The notes under the pieces were generated by a model. The model searched no databases, was not told where the DNA came from, and saw nothing but the letters and a program-made list of their open reading frames with translations. The position numbers were made by a program, and so were the translations under genes. From a virus, in the IMG/VR virus record IMGVR_UViG_3300025849_000256, positions 1 to 22,112 of that record: DNA of 22,112 nucleotides. The stretch is one strand, 5' to 3'. Of this stretch, positions 3,170 to 14,825 are shown in pieces (the first letter of the stretch is position 1; each line of letters starts with the position of its first letter).

Positions 3170-3177
3170 TATAAATA
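3170..3177 (+). promoter_or_regulatory. late promoter TATAAATA for gene 4 unit
   Basis: Exact match to the T4 late -10 element TATAAATA in the 53-base gap between divergent genes 48 and 4. By T4 geometry the start would be near 3183, giving a leader of about 28 bases to the ATG at 3211. No -35 box is visible, as expected for late promoters. It faces the box at 3191-3198. Confidence 0.75.
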
Positions 3178-5114: not shown

Positions 5115-5819
5115 ATGGCACTACCAAGAATTGACACTCCAACCTATGATTTGATTTTAGCATCATCAGGTGAGACAATTAAATACAGACCGTTCTTAGT
5201 TAAAGAACAAAAAATTCTTTTGCTGGCGGCAGAAGATGGTAAACCAGAGGCCGTTGTTAATGGCATTTCGCAGATTATTGAAAACTGCACATTTGGTAAA
5301 GTAAACGCAAGAGACTTACCTATCTTTGATATTGAAAATATCTTCTTGCGTCTACGAGAAAAGTCTGTAGGTGAGATAACAGAGTTCAGCGTTGCATGTA
5401 CTGATGATGAATGTAAGGGAACAACAAAGACAGGTGTAGATTTGAGGGATATTAAGTTATCAGATGCCGTTGCAGAAAAGAATATTAAAATAACAGACAA
5501 TATTACTGTTAACATGAAATATCCAACTTTGATAAATCTAACACAACTAAATGACCTAAATAATATAGATGATAATTTTAAGTTCTTAGCAAATTGTATC
5601 GAAACAATTGAACATGATGGTAACATCATCGATGCAAAGACAACTTCAAAAGAAGAGTTGCAAGAATTTATTGAGAATATGACACAGGCACAGTTTGATA
5701 AGATTAAGGCATTCTTTACAACAATGCCTAGAATGGTAGGAAAACTAGAGTATGATTGTTCTGTTTGCGGAACACACTGCGAAAGAGAATTAAGTGGGTT
5801 GCAGAATTTTTTAGCATAG
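5115..5819 (+). CDS. 26: baseplate hub subunit gp26
   Basis: 234 residues (T4 gp26: 208). Family pattern: a short N-terminal strand, then KYRPFLVKEQKILLLAAEDG at residues 24-43, typical of T4-type base plate protein gp26, then an acidic helical region. Two cysteine pairs, C95-x4-C100 and C215-x2-C218 (with C222 nearby), could make a zinc ribbon joining the middle and the C-terminus. GAGGAG lies 9 bases before the ATG. The last codons contain a U UUU UUA slippery heptamer in frame. A -1 slip would bypass the TAG and add 60 residues, so this gene may make both a 234- and a 293-residue product. In T4, gp26 is a minor hub component needed for hub assembly. Confidence 0.82.
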   Translation: MALPRIDTPTYDLILASSGETIKYRPFLVKEQKILLLAAEDGKPEAVVNGISQIIENCTFGKVNARDLPIFDIENIFLRLREKSVGEITEFSVACTDDECKGTTKTGVDLRDIKLSDAVAEKNIKITDNITVNMKYPTLINLTQLNDLNNIDDNFKFLANCIETIEHDGNIIDAKTTSKEELQEFIENMTQAQFDKIKAFFTTMPRMVGKLEYDCSVCGTHCERELSGLQNFLA

Positions 5820-5834
5820 GCCTCTCTCACGAGG
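5807..5834 (+). other. predicted -1 programmed frameshift signal (slippery site plus hairpin)
   Basis: TTTTTTA at 5807-5813 is read in frame as T TTT TTA, followed by GCA and then the TAG stop. After 7 bases, CCTC (5821-5824) can pair with GAGG (5831-5834) across a 6-base loop. The spacing suits a stimulatory hairpin, although the stem is short. The -1 frame continues without a stop to 5995. Confidence 0.6.
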
Positions 5835-5995
5835 ATTTGTTTAATTTAATGAAAACAAATTTTGCGCTAATGCAACATCACAAATATTCTCTAACCGAGT
5901 TAGAAAATATGATGCCGTGGGAGAGGGAAGTCTATGTAACTCTTCTAGTGCAGTATTTGGAAGAAGAAAAAGAGAAACAAAGACAGAGAGGGTAA
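5813..5995 (+). CDS. gp26 frameshift extension / small hub-assembly protein (gp51-like position)
   Basis: The frame is open from inside gene 26 to the TAA at 5993. The conserved-looking part runs SIGLSHEDLFNLMKTNFAL, then QHHKYSLTELENM, then MPWEREVYVTLLVQYLEEE, and ends in charged residues. Helical content and a central S-L-T-E-L/MPWERE pattern resemble tail-assembly chaperone extensions. The conserved sequence begins directly at the slip point, before the first ATG (5849). That ATG has only a distant GAGGA, 13 bases away. Translation as a C-terminal extension of gp26 is therefore more likely than independent initiation. In T4 the gene after 26 is 51, a hub-assembly catalyst, but I see no clear sequence match to the longer T4 gp51. 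Confidence 0.65.
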   Translation, partial: SIGLSHEDLFNLMKTNFALMQHHKYSLTELENMMPWEREVYVTLLVQYLEEEKEKQRQRG

Positions 5996-5996
5996 A

Positions 5997-6326
5997 ATGG
6001 GAGAAGATATCAAAGAAGCAGGTTTCCATCCAGCAGACACTAATGGGGATGGTATTGTAACTTCTGATGAACGGAAGATGTATCTTGAGTTCAAACGTAA
6101 AGAACTTGAAGATGCAGACGCGAGAAGAGATGCAATGAGATATATGACATGGTTCGCTTTGTTGGGTATATTCAACTATCCAGGGGCGATTTTGATTACA
6201 GCAATGTTAGGTTATGATACAGCGGCGAATATTATCGGAGATATTGCTCCGACTTACTTCGTTGCCACTTCAGCAATTGTTGCCGCCTACTTTGGTGCAA
6301 ATGCTTATGCAGATAAAAAGAAGTAA
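5997..6326 (+). CDS. EF-hand protein with two membrane segments
   Basis: 109 residues. Residues 14-25, DTNGDGIVTSDE, make a canonical 12-residue EF-hand loop: D14, N16, D18, G19, I20/V21, T22 and E25 in the ligand and hydrophobic positions. A charged helix follows (KMYLEFKRKELEDADARRDA). Two hydrophobic stretches come next, about 50-71 (MTWFALLGIFNYPGAILITAM) and 85-102. The C-terminus is lysine-rich. The gene starts one base after the preceding stop, inside the late tail operon, just before the tape-measure candidate. A membrane-active virion component or a holin-like protein would fit the topology, but I cannot assign a function. A single EF-hand would probably need to dimerise to bind calcium tightly. 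Confidence 0.8.
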   Translation: MGEDIKEAGFHPADTNGDGIVTSDERKMYLEFKRKELEDADARRDAMRYMTWFALLGIFNYPGAILITAMLGYDTAANIIGDIAPTYFVATSAIVAAYFGANAYADKKK

Positions 6327-6337
6327 GGAATAATTAA

Positions 6338-8245
6338 ATGGCAGATATAGCATCACTAGCAGACGCAATTGAAAGTCTAAAGATTGAAGTTCAATCTACA
6401 GGCGGACAGCAAATAGCATTCTTAGACAGTATCGCTTTAGATATGTCTGGGATGCTTGACAACTCTAATACAATGGTTGAAGAGTTGCGTTTGTTGCGTG
6501 AAGCATTGGCGCCAGATAATGCGTTTGAACGTGCAGGACAAACTGAACGTGAACGTGAAGCAGGTCTATCTGGACAGAATGTAACACCAGACCAACAAGC
6601 AATCAAACCAATGGGTAAAGGTATATCGGGCAAAGGAATGCTTATGGGTGCCGCGCTTGTTGGTGGCGTTGCCGCATTACTTGCAACATTCGCAGGATTG
6701 CTTGACTTTGATGCAGATAAACTAGTAGGAAAAATAAAAACATTAATGTCACTCAAAGATGAAGTAGCAGATGGTAGTCTATTAAAACTTCTTGCTGAAG
6801 GTGGTGTGCTTATTGCAGTTCTTGGTGGTATAGGTCTCGCTCTTGGAGCATTCGGTATTGGTGCCGCTGTTGCTGGTGGTGGTATGGCACTTGCAGATTG
6901 GTCGGGCGGAAGCGACTGGTCACAAGCAATCGTAGACCACGTTGTAACTCTACTTTCTATTAAGGACCAACTCGGTGGAAACATGAAAATGCTACTGGAT
7001 GGTGGAGCATTTATGTTGACCATGACAGGTATTGGTTTAGGTCTTGCCGCATTTGGTGCTGGTGCATTTGTTGGTGGAGGTGCATTGGCATTCGCAGATT
7101 GGATAGGTGGGGATAAGTCCTGGTCCGAAGCAATTAAAAATCACGTTGTTACGTTACTGTCTATCAAAGATGAACTAGGCGGTAATATGAAGATGTTAAT
7201 GGATGGTGGAGCATTTATGCTAACGATGGCAGGCGTTGGATTAGGTCTTGCCGCGTTTGGTGCTGGAGCGTTTGTTGGTGGTGCTGCATTAAAACTTACT
7301 GATTGGGTAGGTGGTGATGATTGGTCACAAGCAATCAAAGACCATGTAATAACTCTATTATCAATTAAAGATGAGTTGGGTGGTAACTTAGACATGCTTG
7401 CCGATGGTGGTGCATTCATGTTGACCATGGCAGGTATTGGTTTAGGTCTTGCCGCATTTGGTATAGGCAGTGCAACAGCAGGTCTTGGGGAATCAGTTGC
7501 AAAGTTTTCTATGGGTAGTGATTGGACCCAAACAATAAAAGATAATGTTATAAAACTCGTATCAGTAACAGACGAAGTATCTGTAGAAAAGGCACAGCAA
7601 TTCAGTAATGCAATGGGACTTGTCTCTGCAGGACTGTTAAAGTTCTCTGGTGGTAATTTCGGATCAGCATTCTTAGAAGCAGGAGCAAACATTCTAAACT
7701 TCTTATCTGGAGGTAAAAGTCCTATTGAGCAGATGATGGATGTTGGAAACAATGCAGACAACTTGAATAAAGGCGCAGATGCACTAGACAGAATACAAAT
7801 TGCATTAGGTAAACTAGGTGGTCTGAAATTCAGTGGTTCTAAATTAGGCATCACAGAAATGGCAGAAGACTTATTGAATGCTATACCTGCAATTGAAACT
7901 GCTATCAATGGTGGTACTGTTGGTGAAGGATGGATATCATCCGGAACAAAGATTAAAGGTCTCGCATCTGGCGATATTAAGTTTGAAGATGCCGCAACTA
8001 ATATTAAGTTGTTAAGGGAATCTCTTGGATTAACGGCAGAGGTTCAACCAGCACCTATCACTCCTCAAGTAAATGATAGAACATCACAGATGGGCGCACA
8101 AAATAGTGGTGGTAATACTACGATAGCGGCGCCTACAATAGCACCTACTCAAGTTAACAACTCTAGTAGTAACTCTACAGCATTCGCTGGACGCAACGAG
8201 CATCGTAAGAGAGACTTTGATGATTTGATGTTTGCTGGTGCTTAA
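6338..8245 (+). CDS. large repeat-containing tail protein, tape-measure candidate
   Basis: 635 residues. The N-terminus (1-75) is helical and probably coiled coil. From about residue 131 a unit of 67-68 residues repeats: a W-S-x-A-I-K-D-H-V start, then TLLSIKDELGGNMKML, DGGAFMLTMAGIGLGLAAFG, a glycine/alanine stretch and DW. The tryptophans that end the units fall at 194, 262, 329 and 396, and a diverged fifth unit follows. The C-terminal third is less repetitive, and residues 555-610 are Asn/Ser/Pro/Thr-rich. Length, helicity, hydrophobic Gly/Ala segments and position after the hub genes suit a tape measure (T4 gp29 has 590 residues), but I see no direct gp29 match. It could instead be another membrane-interacting internal tail protein. 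It ends convergent with the next gene, the stop codons overlapping. Confidence 0.7.
   Translation: MADIASLADAIESLKIEVQSTGGQQIAFLDSIALDMSGMLDNSNTMVEELRLLREALAPDNAFERAGQTEREREAGLSGQNVTPDQQAIKPMGKGISGKGMLMGAALVGGVAALLATFAGLLDFDADKLVGKIKTLMSLKDEVADGSLLKLLAEGGVLIAVLGGIGLALGAFGIGAAVAGGGMALADWSGGSDWSQAIVDHVVTLLSIKDQLGGNMKMLLDGGAFMLTMTGIGLGLAAFGAGAFVGGGALAFADWIGGDKSWSEAIKNHVVTLLSIKDELGGNMKMLMDGGAFMLTMAGVGLGLAAFGAGAFVGGAALKLTDWVGGDDWSQAIKDHVITLLSIKDELGGNLDMLADGGAFMLTMAGIGLGLAAFGIGSATAGLGESVAKFSMGSDWTQTIKDNVIKLVSVTDEVSVEKAQQFSNAMGLVSAGLLKFSGGNFGSAFLEAGANILNFLSGGKSPIEQMMDVGNNADNLNKGADALDRIQIALGKLGGLKFSGSKLGITEMAEDLLNAIPAIETAINGGTVGEGWISSGTKIKGLASGDIKFEDAATNIKLLRESLGLTAEVQPAPITPQVNDRTSQMGAQNSGGNTTIAAPTIAPTQVNNSSSNSTAFAGRNEHRKRDFDDLMFAGA
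6728..7525 (+). repeat. in-frame tandem repeat, about 201-204 bp units
   Basis: Four units encode residues 131-194, 195-262, 263-329 and 330-396, with a diverged fifth starting at 7526. Spacing between equivalent tryptophan codons is 68, 67 and 67. The second to fourth units are the most alike (for example GGAFMLTM, then GLGLAAFG). Third-position differences between units show that the copies are not recent identical duplications. Confidence 0.85.
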
Positions 8246-8697
8246 CCGTACTTAGGTAGATACGCAAAGGTATAGAACAACCACACTAGAAGCGAAAATA
8301 CTGCCGCACCAGCGGTTAATGCCGCGGCAAGTTGAATCCACTCCATTATATTTTCATGTCTTTCTATTGCCGCTTTTCTTGCGGCGATTTCCGCTTCGCG
8401 TCTTTTCTCTGCCGCTTGCTTTTGAAATTGTAACCAGTCTTGCCACATGCCAGCACGACCTGTATAAATCATCATCTCTCGGAGTTCATCTTCTTGTGCC
8501 TTGAGTTTTTCAAGTGCCATAAACTCTTCTAAGTCAGATTTGTTTCCGCCTGCGTTATTTACTTTTTTCTGTAAAGAATTTTTTGCATCAAAATAACCGA
8601 CCAGTTGCTCACCACAATCGTACAGTTCTTTCCCGTTGCTTATGAATTCTTTTACAGTATTGAACGCCGCAGATGCTAATGCTAGTTCTGCTAACAT
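8242..8697 (-). CDS. coiled-coil protein with C-terminal membrane anchor
   Basis: 151 residues from the ATG at 8697. That start is chosen because AGAGGGG lies 10 bases upstream; the longer reading from 8730 has no such site. The first 20 residues are alanine-rich and helical. Residues about 50-115 are charged and helical (LEEFMALEKLKAQEDELREM and EKRREAEIAARKAAIERHE). A single transmembrane segment lies near 120-143 (LAAALTAGAAVFSLLVWLFY). From memory, proteins of this layout sit near virion genes in marine T4-like phages, without known function. A TATAAATA late promoter at 8774-8781 drives it, so it is made with the virion. A spanin or inner-membrane tail-contact role is possible but unproven. 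Confidence 0.78.
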   Translation of the reverse strand: MLAELALASAAFNTVKEFISNGKELYDCGEQLVGYFDAKNSLQKKVNNAGGNKSDLEEFMALEKLKAQEDELREMMIYTGRAGMWQDWLQFQKQAAEKRREAEIAARKAAIERHENIMEWIQLAAALTAGAAVFSLLVWLFYTFAYLPKYG

Positions 8698-8773: not shown

Positions 8774-8781
8774 TATTTATA
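8774..8781 (-). promoter_or_regulatory. late promoter TATAAATA for the 8242-8697 gene
   Basis: Exact TATAAATA on the minus strand, with a start predicted near 8768. It overlaps the last T of the upstream terminator's T run, so the gp32 unit ends where this unit begins. Confidence 0.7.
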
Positions 8782-11390: not shown

Positions 11391-11927
11391 TTAATCCCAT
11401 CTATAAAAAATGTGGTCACCTATTTGAGCAATATATGTTTTCGTCTTTGCCCAATAAGGATTTACATAAGTTGCATGATAATGTGTCGACCCCTCAATCA
11501 TACCATCATAACGACCATCTATTACTCTTGTCGCTAAAAGATATAATCCTGAGTATGCGTACACATCTCTAATTTCGTCAGACTTACCGTCACAGAACCA
11601 ACTAAACTGACATTTATTTCTAATTGGAACATCTTTGTTGTGTTCTTCTTTCCACCACTTAGATGTTGGTCCTTGATACACCACTTCACATATAGTGTTA
11701 GGAAATCTTGAATCCTTAACACGGTTCATAACAACTAATGATACTGCAATCTGACCCGCTTTGGGTTGTCCCTTTGCTTCAAAGTACATATTTTTTGCGA
11801 GACAAGTTGTTTCTGCATCAATAGTAAATGTTTCGGTTGCAACCTCTGCACTTGATCCGCTTGACTTATAAGCGATTGCAGAAGCAACTAATGCTGTTAA
11901 CACAATTGTTTTTTTCATCATGTACAC
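11391..11927 (-). CDS. secreted cell wall hydrolase, SleB/CwlJ type
   Basis: 178 residues. An N-terminal signal peptide (MMKKTIVLTALVASAIAY, then a Ser/Gly stretch ending near residue 27) is followed by the hydrolase_2 domain: AKNMYFEAKGQPKAGQIAVS with the likely catalytic E50, VVMNRVKDSRFPNTICEVVYQ, CQFSWFCDG, and a terminal HYHATYVNPYW. These enzymes cut peptidoglycan in the periplasm. The host-type promoter at 11928-11956 puts the start of transcription at about 11921, on the third codon (ATG ATG AAA). Either the true start is 11921 on a leaderless message, or a longer message is used. An early promoter for a wall enzyme is unusual. The gene precedes gp33 with a short overlap region. Confidence 0.85.
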   Translation of the reverse strand: MYMMKKTIVLTALVASAIAYKSSGSSAEVATETFTIDAETTCLAKNMYFEAKGQPKAGQIAVSLVVMNRVKDSRFPNTICEVVYQGPTSKWWKEEHNKDVPIRNKCQFSWFCDGKSDEIRDVYAYSGLYLLATRVIDGRYDGMIEGSTHYHATYVNPYWAKTKTYIAQIGDHIFYRWD

Positions 11928-14273: not shown

Positions 14274-14825
14274 TTAAATTAATCCAAATGCTTTAGATGT
14301 AGTTTCATCTACTCTTCGTAACCATCCACGACCAAAGGTCTCAAAAGTACCCAACTTCTTATAGTAGTTTGTACGCATCTCTTGATAGTTGGTGATTGCT
14401 TGGTGAAGACCCGCATCTTCATTTGCTTTATCATTATCAATTTCATCAATATATTCTTGTAATGCTTTTAGCGTCATAGGTCCGATACCACCATCTGGAG
14501 TTGCACCAATCATCTGTTGTAAGTATTTTGCGGCACGACCTGTTCCAGCATTAACACCAAAATCAAAAACACACAAGTCTAAACCTGCAGGTAAATCATC
14601 ACCTTTCAGTCTATCCCAATATTCTTCTTTATAAATTGGGGCAACGTCCTTGACTTTAAGTGATTTCATTTTTTTCACTTTAAGGTCCTTGCGCTCACAG
14701 TATGCCTCGTAGACACGTTTTGTTACTCCAAGGTTAGTCTCACCTCCTGGGTCCTTAGGGTGATTAACGTATCCACCTTCGTGGTGTAGAATGGTCTCTA
14801 AGCATTCTTCATAATTCTTCTGCAT
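14274..14825 (-). CDS. endolysin, glycoside hydrolase family 108
   Basis: 183 residues. The N-terminal catalytic domain shows LHHEGGYVNHPKDPGGETN with the catalytic E16, then LGVTKRVYEAY, and KEEYWDRLKGDDLPAGLDL followed by FDFGVNAG, all typical of GH108 N-acetylmuramidases. The C-terminal part (NYYKKLGTFETFGRGWLRRVD) matches the peptidoglycan-binding domain that usually follows. There is no signal peptide, so release would need a holin or other membrane lesion. AGGAG lies 6 bases before the ATG, and the gene is 9 bases after phoH. Confidence 0.93.
   Translation of the reverse strand: MQKNYEECLETILHHEGGYVNHPKDPGGETNLGVTKRVYEAYCERKDLKVKKMKSLKVKDVAPIYKEEYWDRLKGDDLPAGLDLCVFDFGVNAGTGRAAKYLQQMIGATPDGGIGPMTLKALQEYIDEIDNDKANEDAGLHQAITNYQEMRTNYYKKLGTFETFGRGWLRRVDETTSKAFGLI

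Follow-up and report, generated by a model that had tools for sequence, protein, structure and literature searches.

Gene content and order around the frame

The window analyzed here, the whole 22,112-base stretch of a virus record, holds T4-type tail genes in its left part, namely those for gp53, the tail tube cap, gp4, gp2, gp54, gp26 and gp51 (Pfam and PHROGs). At 5997..6326 (+ strand) it carries an open reading frame (ORF) for a protein of 109 aa, hereafter the loop protein, in which a calcium-binding-type loop is followed by a charged helix and two membrane helices and which is put forward here as a candidate holin; it is documented by the ORF, 321 loci with a member and an AlphaFold2 model. 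The sequence-only reading had placed this frame in the tail operon, and this was borne out: gp4, gp2, gp54, gp26 and gp51 all lie upstream of it (PHROGs). The frame begins with ATG; the stop codon of gp51 lies 1 nt upstream and the next ATG 11 nt downstream. The preceding genes code for a gp26-like baseplate hub subunit (5115..5819, +; PF12322, 3.4e-59; phrog_150, 8.3e-63) and a gp51-like baseplate hub assembly catalyst (5849..5995, +), the latter recognized by a phrog_634 match of 3e-29 to the ORF 5756-5995, with the ATG at 5849 chosen by eye. The 635-aa ORF that follows (6338..8245, +) gave no reliable family match in Pfam or PHROGs and is called tape-measure-like from its position and from the annotation of Pelagibacter phage HTVC008M, where the gene at this position is a putative tail tape measure; the hydropathy scan of the window detected hydrophobic stretches in this ORF also. 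The order of the tail genes is nearly identical to that of HTVC008M and Methylophilales phage Melnitz. Upstream of the genes running from gp4 through gp51 and the loop protein gene to the 635-aa gene, a word search located TATAAATA at 3170..3177 (+), which we take to be a T4-type late promoter core; the window contains 9 copies of this word as compared to 2.49 expected.

With respect to lysis, the window codes for a GH108 endolysin (14274..14825, −; PF05838, 2.5e-29; PF09374, 1.1e-5), in which no segment exceeded the hydrophobicity threshold of the window scan, and soluble endolysins normally require a holin. A Hydrolase_2 cell-wall hydrolase (11391..11927, −; PF07486, 1.2e-24) with a signal-like N-terminus, as judged by eye, is encoded as well, so that the window carries two wall enzymes of different export type. 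GH108 was found in 9 of 29 records searched, including HTVC008M, Melnitz and pelagimyophage Mosig, while the T4 holin PF11031 was found in none of 11 records in a search run without a T4 positive control. Of 208 ORFs called in HTVC008M, 2 combine a length of at most 180 aa with at least two hydrophobic segments over the threshold. One is the loop protein and the other, of 67 aa, lies at 133994-134197, a count that depends on the threshold: the window protein itself scores a single segment at the same setting since its second segment peaks at 1.54, and other proteins with two transmembrane (TM) helices may therefore have been missed in HTVC008M. The 67-aa protein is sited in a region of small ORFs. 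Elsewhere in HTVC008M, a membrane-helix/coiled-coil ORF (117049-117276) followed by a lipoprotein-like small ORF (117442-117582) resembles, by eye, an Rz/Rz1 pair, far from the endolysin.

A further membrane protein of the window, group 2 (8242..8697, −), is a phrog_32327-like protein (6.4e-6) of about 150 aa with a C-terminal membrane helix, and a T4-type late promoter core lies near its gene at 8774-8781. Its relatives were found by tblastn in roseophages, in several of them near the terminase end, and in Mosig. In the AlphaFold2 model of group 2 (pLDDT 90), three helices accompany a long one whose end lies in the membrane; among the structural neighbours of the model are syntaxin Habc bundles, with a Z of about 8, which is too low for a helical bundle to indicate kinship.

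Calcium-binding-type loop and predicted membrane topology

Residues 14-25 of the loop protein (6036..6071, +) form the 12-residue loop DTNGDGIVTSDE, in which every canonical ligand is present in canonical register (D14-T-N16-G-D18-G-I-V-T-S-D-E25) and whose DTNGDG stretch conforms to the Dx[DN]xDG motif. Glutamate at position 12 of an EF-hand loop is the calcium-preferring choice. All 237 distinct frames keep the ligands, with D at position 1, D or N at 3, D or N at 5, V, I or L at 8 and E at 12; position 6 is G in 210 of them and D, N or H in 27, and positions 2, 7, 10 and 11 vary. Loss of the loop ligands in relatives, which the sequence-only reading had named as the observation that would speak against it, was thus not seen among these frames. 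In a 70-row alignment whose rows fall to 26% identity, D14 and E25 are the only invariant columns, and at the DNA level both synonymous codons occur at positions 1, 5 and 12 across 206 distinct loop sequences. Shuffling the window protein 200,000 times produced the strict pattern in 20 cases, and of 7,776 other ORFs from the sampled loci (six frames, 60 aa or longer) 3 contain it. The sample was drawn from four viral scans, with the window protein, an 11-row alignment, the CRP-207 protein and the CRP-9 protein as queries, taking the best 80 of 141, 578, 594 and 204 confirmed loci, respectively; together with six annotated phage loci and the window this gave 321 loci with a member (7 contigs being counted twice with different flanks), 237 distinct upstream-extended frames and 213 distinct proteins when counted from the loop to the end. 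Since few search peptides reached into the loop (1 of 6, 0 of 2, 1 of 6 and 1 of 6 across the four scans), the loop was not the main selector of the scanned loci.

The loop is followed by a charged helix (residues 26-50; 6072..6146, +), delimited from the model and from K+R counts, which is continuous with TM1 (residues about 51-70; 6147..6206, +; hydropathy and model); TM2 (residues about 79-101; 6231..6299, +) rests on a weak hydropathy peak of 1.54 and on a model helix. Two membrane segments had been claimed before, and hydropathy and model agree with this. The AlphaFold2 model (65 rows; pLDDT 80, pTM 0.50) consists of coil 1-22, helix 23-70 and helix 74-107, so that the calcium-type loop passes into a charged helix running straight into TM1, followed by a tight turn and TM2; confidence is low at the N-terminus, with blocks of 47 and 69 in the first 20 residues and pLDDT 47-76 over residues 1-30. 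A canonical EF-hand has a helix on both sides of its loop, and in the model the entering helix is missing; in 79 of the 321 members just five residues precede the loop. The earlier assignment as an EF-hand therefore holds for the canonical 12-residue loop with its ligands but not for a full EF-hand, and the protein is better described as a half EF-hand. In Pfam, EF-hand_1 matched 8 of 11 diverse members and EF-hand_5 matched 7 of 11 at E up to 0.1 (best 1.7e-4), with scores below the cut-offs wherever cut-offs are given; the window protein itself reached only 0.12.

In all 237 frames, K+R residues are more numerous in residues 34-50 than in the turn between TM1 and TM2, K and R are absent from TM1 in these frames, and the C-terminal tail is basic on average (mean 2.45 K+R, range 0-5). 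From this charge distribution an N-in/C-in topology is predicted, although a cruder count, in which both flanks must beat the middle, gave N-in/C-in in only 236 of 321 members. Hydropathy, model and charges thus jointly predict a small membrane protein with at least one TM helix, as expected of a holin, and more specifically the class II layout of two TM helices with both termini inside.

Database searches did not assign the family to known holins: no holin family in Pfam or PHROGs matched the window protein or the 11 diverse members above cut-off, the sole holin-family match being PF07332 at 0.024 in 2 of the 11. The GTA-type holin family PF11351 was absent among the Pfam matches of the 11 members at E up to 0.1, and the T4 holin PF11031 matched neither the window protein nor these members. 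The PHROGs family phrog_27150, which has no function assigned, matched 6 of the 11 members (best 5.2e-11) and the window protein only at 0.09. A PDB fold search with the model returned nothing significant (best E 2.8), BFVD yielded one significant protein, 84% identical, and a scan of genome contigs gave 3 loci, all in metagenome bins. Homology to GTA holins had been suspected from similar C-termini and was rejected: hhalign gave 2.5% against PF11351-type sequences and 0.4% against their relatives in group 31, and none of thirteen further protein sets used as controls, most with a membrane segment, exceeded 2.0%.

Neighbourhoods of relatives and the holin slot

The loop protein was found in named phages, comprising four Melnitz strains, HTVC008M, CRP-207, CRP-345, CRP-810, CRP-9, CRP-1 and the freshwater Limnohabitans phage DC31, and in the records examined its gene is annotated as a hypothetical protein. 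Neighbouring genes, of which representatives were searched in Pfam and PHROGs, differ between groups of phages. An endolysin gene adjoins the loop protein gene in CRP-1 and CRP-9; CRP-345 has a spanin at +1 and an endolysin at +2, CRP-810 a PF11351 holin at +1 and a GH108 enzyme at +2, and DC31 an Rz-like spanin (3.9e-7) at +1 and a peptidase endolysin at +2. In 78 of 81 CRP-9-type contig loci, a member of five lysis groups lies no more than two genes away, as compared to 26.7 expected, the expectation being taken from other positions in the same loci and the five groups not covering every lysis gene. The other larger contig clades show little or no such enrichment: 4 of 38 versus 4.2 expected in L128, 3 of 34 versus 1.5 in L170, 4 of 23 versus 2.8 in L123 and 2 of 9 versus 1.2 in L208. 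Among the 117 loci with gp26 or gp54, where the loop protein gene lies among tail genes, lysis-group neighbours number 9 as compared to 2.6 expected, and in three loci inspected their source is a coiled-coil protein. A lysis cassette or holin slot is occupied in CRP-1, CRP-9, CRP-345, CRP-810 and DC31 and, by a homologue that lacks the loop, in CRP-171, but not in the T4-like loci or in several contig clades.

In CRP-207, the neighbouring gp73 is labelled lysozyme but gave no lysis-family match, and we do not adopt this label. A protein family with an N-terminal membrane helix and a long coiled coil, which is an i-spanin-like topology (group 12; L009:5790-6311, −, and L083:3292-3873), is present in T4-like relatives, and in CRP-207-type phages its gene immediately precedes that of the loop protein; no lysis-family match supports it.

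Comparison of gene orders indicates what occupies the same slot elsewhere. CRP-1 has the order group 2, small basic gene, loop protein and endolysin, and HMO-2011 has group 2, a small basic gene related to that of CRP-1 (by eye), gene _58, a 37-aa ORF and lysozyme. Gene _58 alone gave no PF11351 match; aligned with its relatives (group 31), it matched GTA holins at 96.2% with an E of 2.6e-9 (hhalign). In the T7-like roseophage CRP-361, the slot that separates group 2 from DNA maturase A is filled by a PF11351 holin (8.6e-12), and in CRP-171 the same slot holds a 79-aa protein with two TM helices together with a member of phrog_30566, to which the putative spanins of CRP-9-type loci likewise belong. 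Whole-genome search (E 2.3e-5) and hhalign against the loop family (90%, E 1.6e-6, with 15 other sets reaching at most 2.5%) identify the 79-aa protein as a relative of the window protein that lacks the loop. The membrane part can thus exist without the loop, because none of the 8 distant T7-like homologues examined, of which 4 are nearly identical, has an intact one. Around the start of one such homologue (L329:4377-4454), the frame reads DFNMTDGHIVDKQ, which by eye may be a decayed calcium loop.

A similar alternation is seen among T4-like pelagimyophages: HTVC008M and Melnitz have the loop protein and no PF11351 match, while Mosig shows the reverse, its PF11351 score of 24.9 bits standing against a cut-off of 24.8. 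Homologues of this Mosig gene overlap annotated lysozymes in vibriophages; the Mosig-like population sample comprised 36 loci, and no contig among them was longer than 23,340 bases. Twenty named genomes were selected because they had the loop protein or group 2; the loop family was found in 9 (CRP-171 included), PF11351 in 3, both in 1 (CRP-810) and neither in 9. PF11351 was found in 1 of 25 loop-protein records chosen for length, which may be incomplete, and a GTA-type relative (group 60 or 31) accompanies the loop protein in 23 of the 321 loci.

Probable function of the loop protein and comparison with known systems

We consider it reasonably probable, judging from sequence comparison, that the loop protein is a small class-II-type holin with an added N-terminal calcium-binding-type loop, because the genes of its relatives sit with lysis genes or in slots filled elsewhere by GTA-type holins. 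The sequence-only reading had proposed calcium-dependent membrane action in DNA entry or lysis. Lysis gained comparative support from the lysis neighbours and from the GTA-holin slots in several other phages, while DNA entry rests on the position in the tail operon, a position not seen for the named relatives from phages that are not T4-like. The corresponding explanation, i.e., a virion protein of the tail that rides with the tape measure and helps DNA to cross the inner membrane, would account for the place after gp26 and gp51 and before the long tape-measure-like ORF in T4-like loci, for the single gene run behind the late promoter core and for the hydrophobic stretches in the 635-aa ORF; we regard it as unlikely in view of the endolysin or spanin genes beside relatives in CRP-1, CRP-9, CRP-345, CRP-810 and DC31 and of the loop-less homologue before the maturase genes in CRP-171. 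Somewhat more doubtful still is a role as a lysis regulator, either antiholin or holin partner, with the hole formed by group 2 or a GTA-type protein. In CRP-1 and DC31 the loop protein has the group 2 membrane protein as a neighbour, as does its loop-less cousin in CRP-171, and since CRP-810 and 23 of the 321 loci hold both the loop protein and a PF11351 holin or GTA-type relative, the loop protein need not be the holin there and is possibly a regulator or a second holin. Against a general regulatory role, a PF11351 holin accompanies the loop protein in only the one record of 25, and neither PF11351 nor PF11031 nor group 2 was matched in HTVC008M or Melnitz, which leaves nothing recognized to regulate.

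Regarding the mode of action, the candidate holin would be made late together with the tail proteins, gather in the inner membrane and open holes through which the soluble GH108 endolysin could reach the wall. Free calcium inside bacteria is far below the level in seawater. The loop, predicted to lie on the cytoplasmic side of the membrane with its very low free calcium, should therefore be empty until the membrane first leaks. A first leak would then admit outside calcium, which might close or order the loop, and the helix joining loop and TM1 could stiffen and relay the calcium signal to an abrupt, cooperative opening of holes. We tentatively propose, as a possibility of rather low probability, such a calcium-triggered holin, in which the loop senses the calcium inrush via first leaks and opening is sudden and all-or-none, the calcium gradient serving as lysis trigger; the gating step itself is one we infer. 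Alternatively, the loop might only stabilize the fold or anchor the protein to anionic lipid via calcium, without acting as a switch. This alternative, which is compatible with the holin reading, is a serious possibility, given that the loop is single and without a partner in the window protein, that all 8 T7-like homologues examined manage without an intact loop and that structure stabilization is described as a common role of bound calcium in the part of PMC3123361 consulted. Full ligand conservation down to 26% identity and the one continuous helix from loop to TM1 in the model would rather fit coupling, but are no proof of it.

If calcium gates the loop protein, lysis of common marine bacteria would be timed by an ion gradient, and calcium may contribute to when common aquatic bacteria burst. 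One small membrane module is common to T4-like, CRP-9-type, CRP-207-type, CRP-810-type and Limnohabitans phages, and T7-like roseophages carry a relative of it that lacks the loop. The class II holins, to which phage 21 S and T7 gp17.5 belong, are likewise small proteins with two membrane helices and, as predicted for the loop protein, N-in/C-in and probably late; T7 gene 17.5 sits before the maturase genes, like the loop-less homologue in CRP-171. Unlike these holins, the loop protein has a cytoplasmic arm of 45-50 residues with a calcium loop and, in T4-like phages, a place in the tail operon.

For T4-like pelagimyophages a candidate holin can now be named, where the Melnitz analysis, in the portion available, invoked the curli pore CsgG as a pinholin-like permeabilizing step (PMC9004378); in the main text as available 'holin' occurs 4 times, each within 'pinholin', and CsgG is an outer-membrane pore, unlike the loop protein. 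No EF-hand holin was found in the literature searched, outside whose coverage many subscription papers lie, and neither 'holin' nor 'EF-hand' occurs in the accessible parts of the CRP-9 (PMC8528129) and CRP-810 (PMC11288001) reports. In cobaviruses, genes with one or two TM helices near the endolysins were called potential holins and antiholins (PMC6775973, as far as accessible); these are likewise small membrane proteins, encoded beside roseophage endolysin and spanin genes, and are described in that portion of the text without the words 'EF-hand' or 'calcium'. GTA_holin_3TM (PF11351) fills the equivalent slot in CRP-361 and, via a relative, in HMO-2011 and is present in Mosig, but no homology to the loop protein was detected (hhalign 2.5%) and both can co-occur, as in CRP-810. 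Finally, EF-hand and Dx[DN]xDG calcium loops, as presented in the part of PMC3123361 consulted, have the same 12-residue ligand pattern with Gly at position 6 and Glu at position 12, whereas the loop described here lacks the entering helix, is present in a single copy and is joined directly to a membrane helix.
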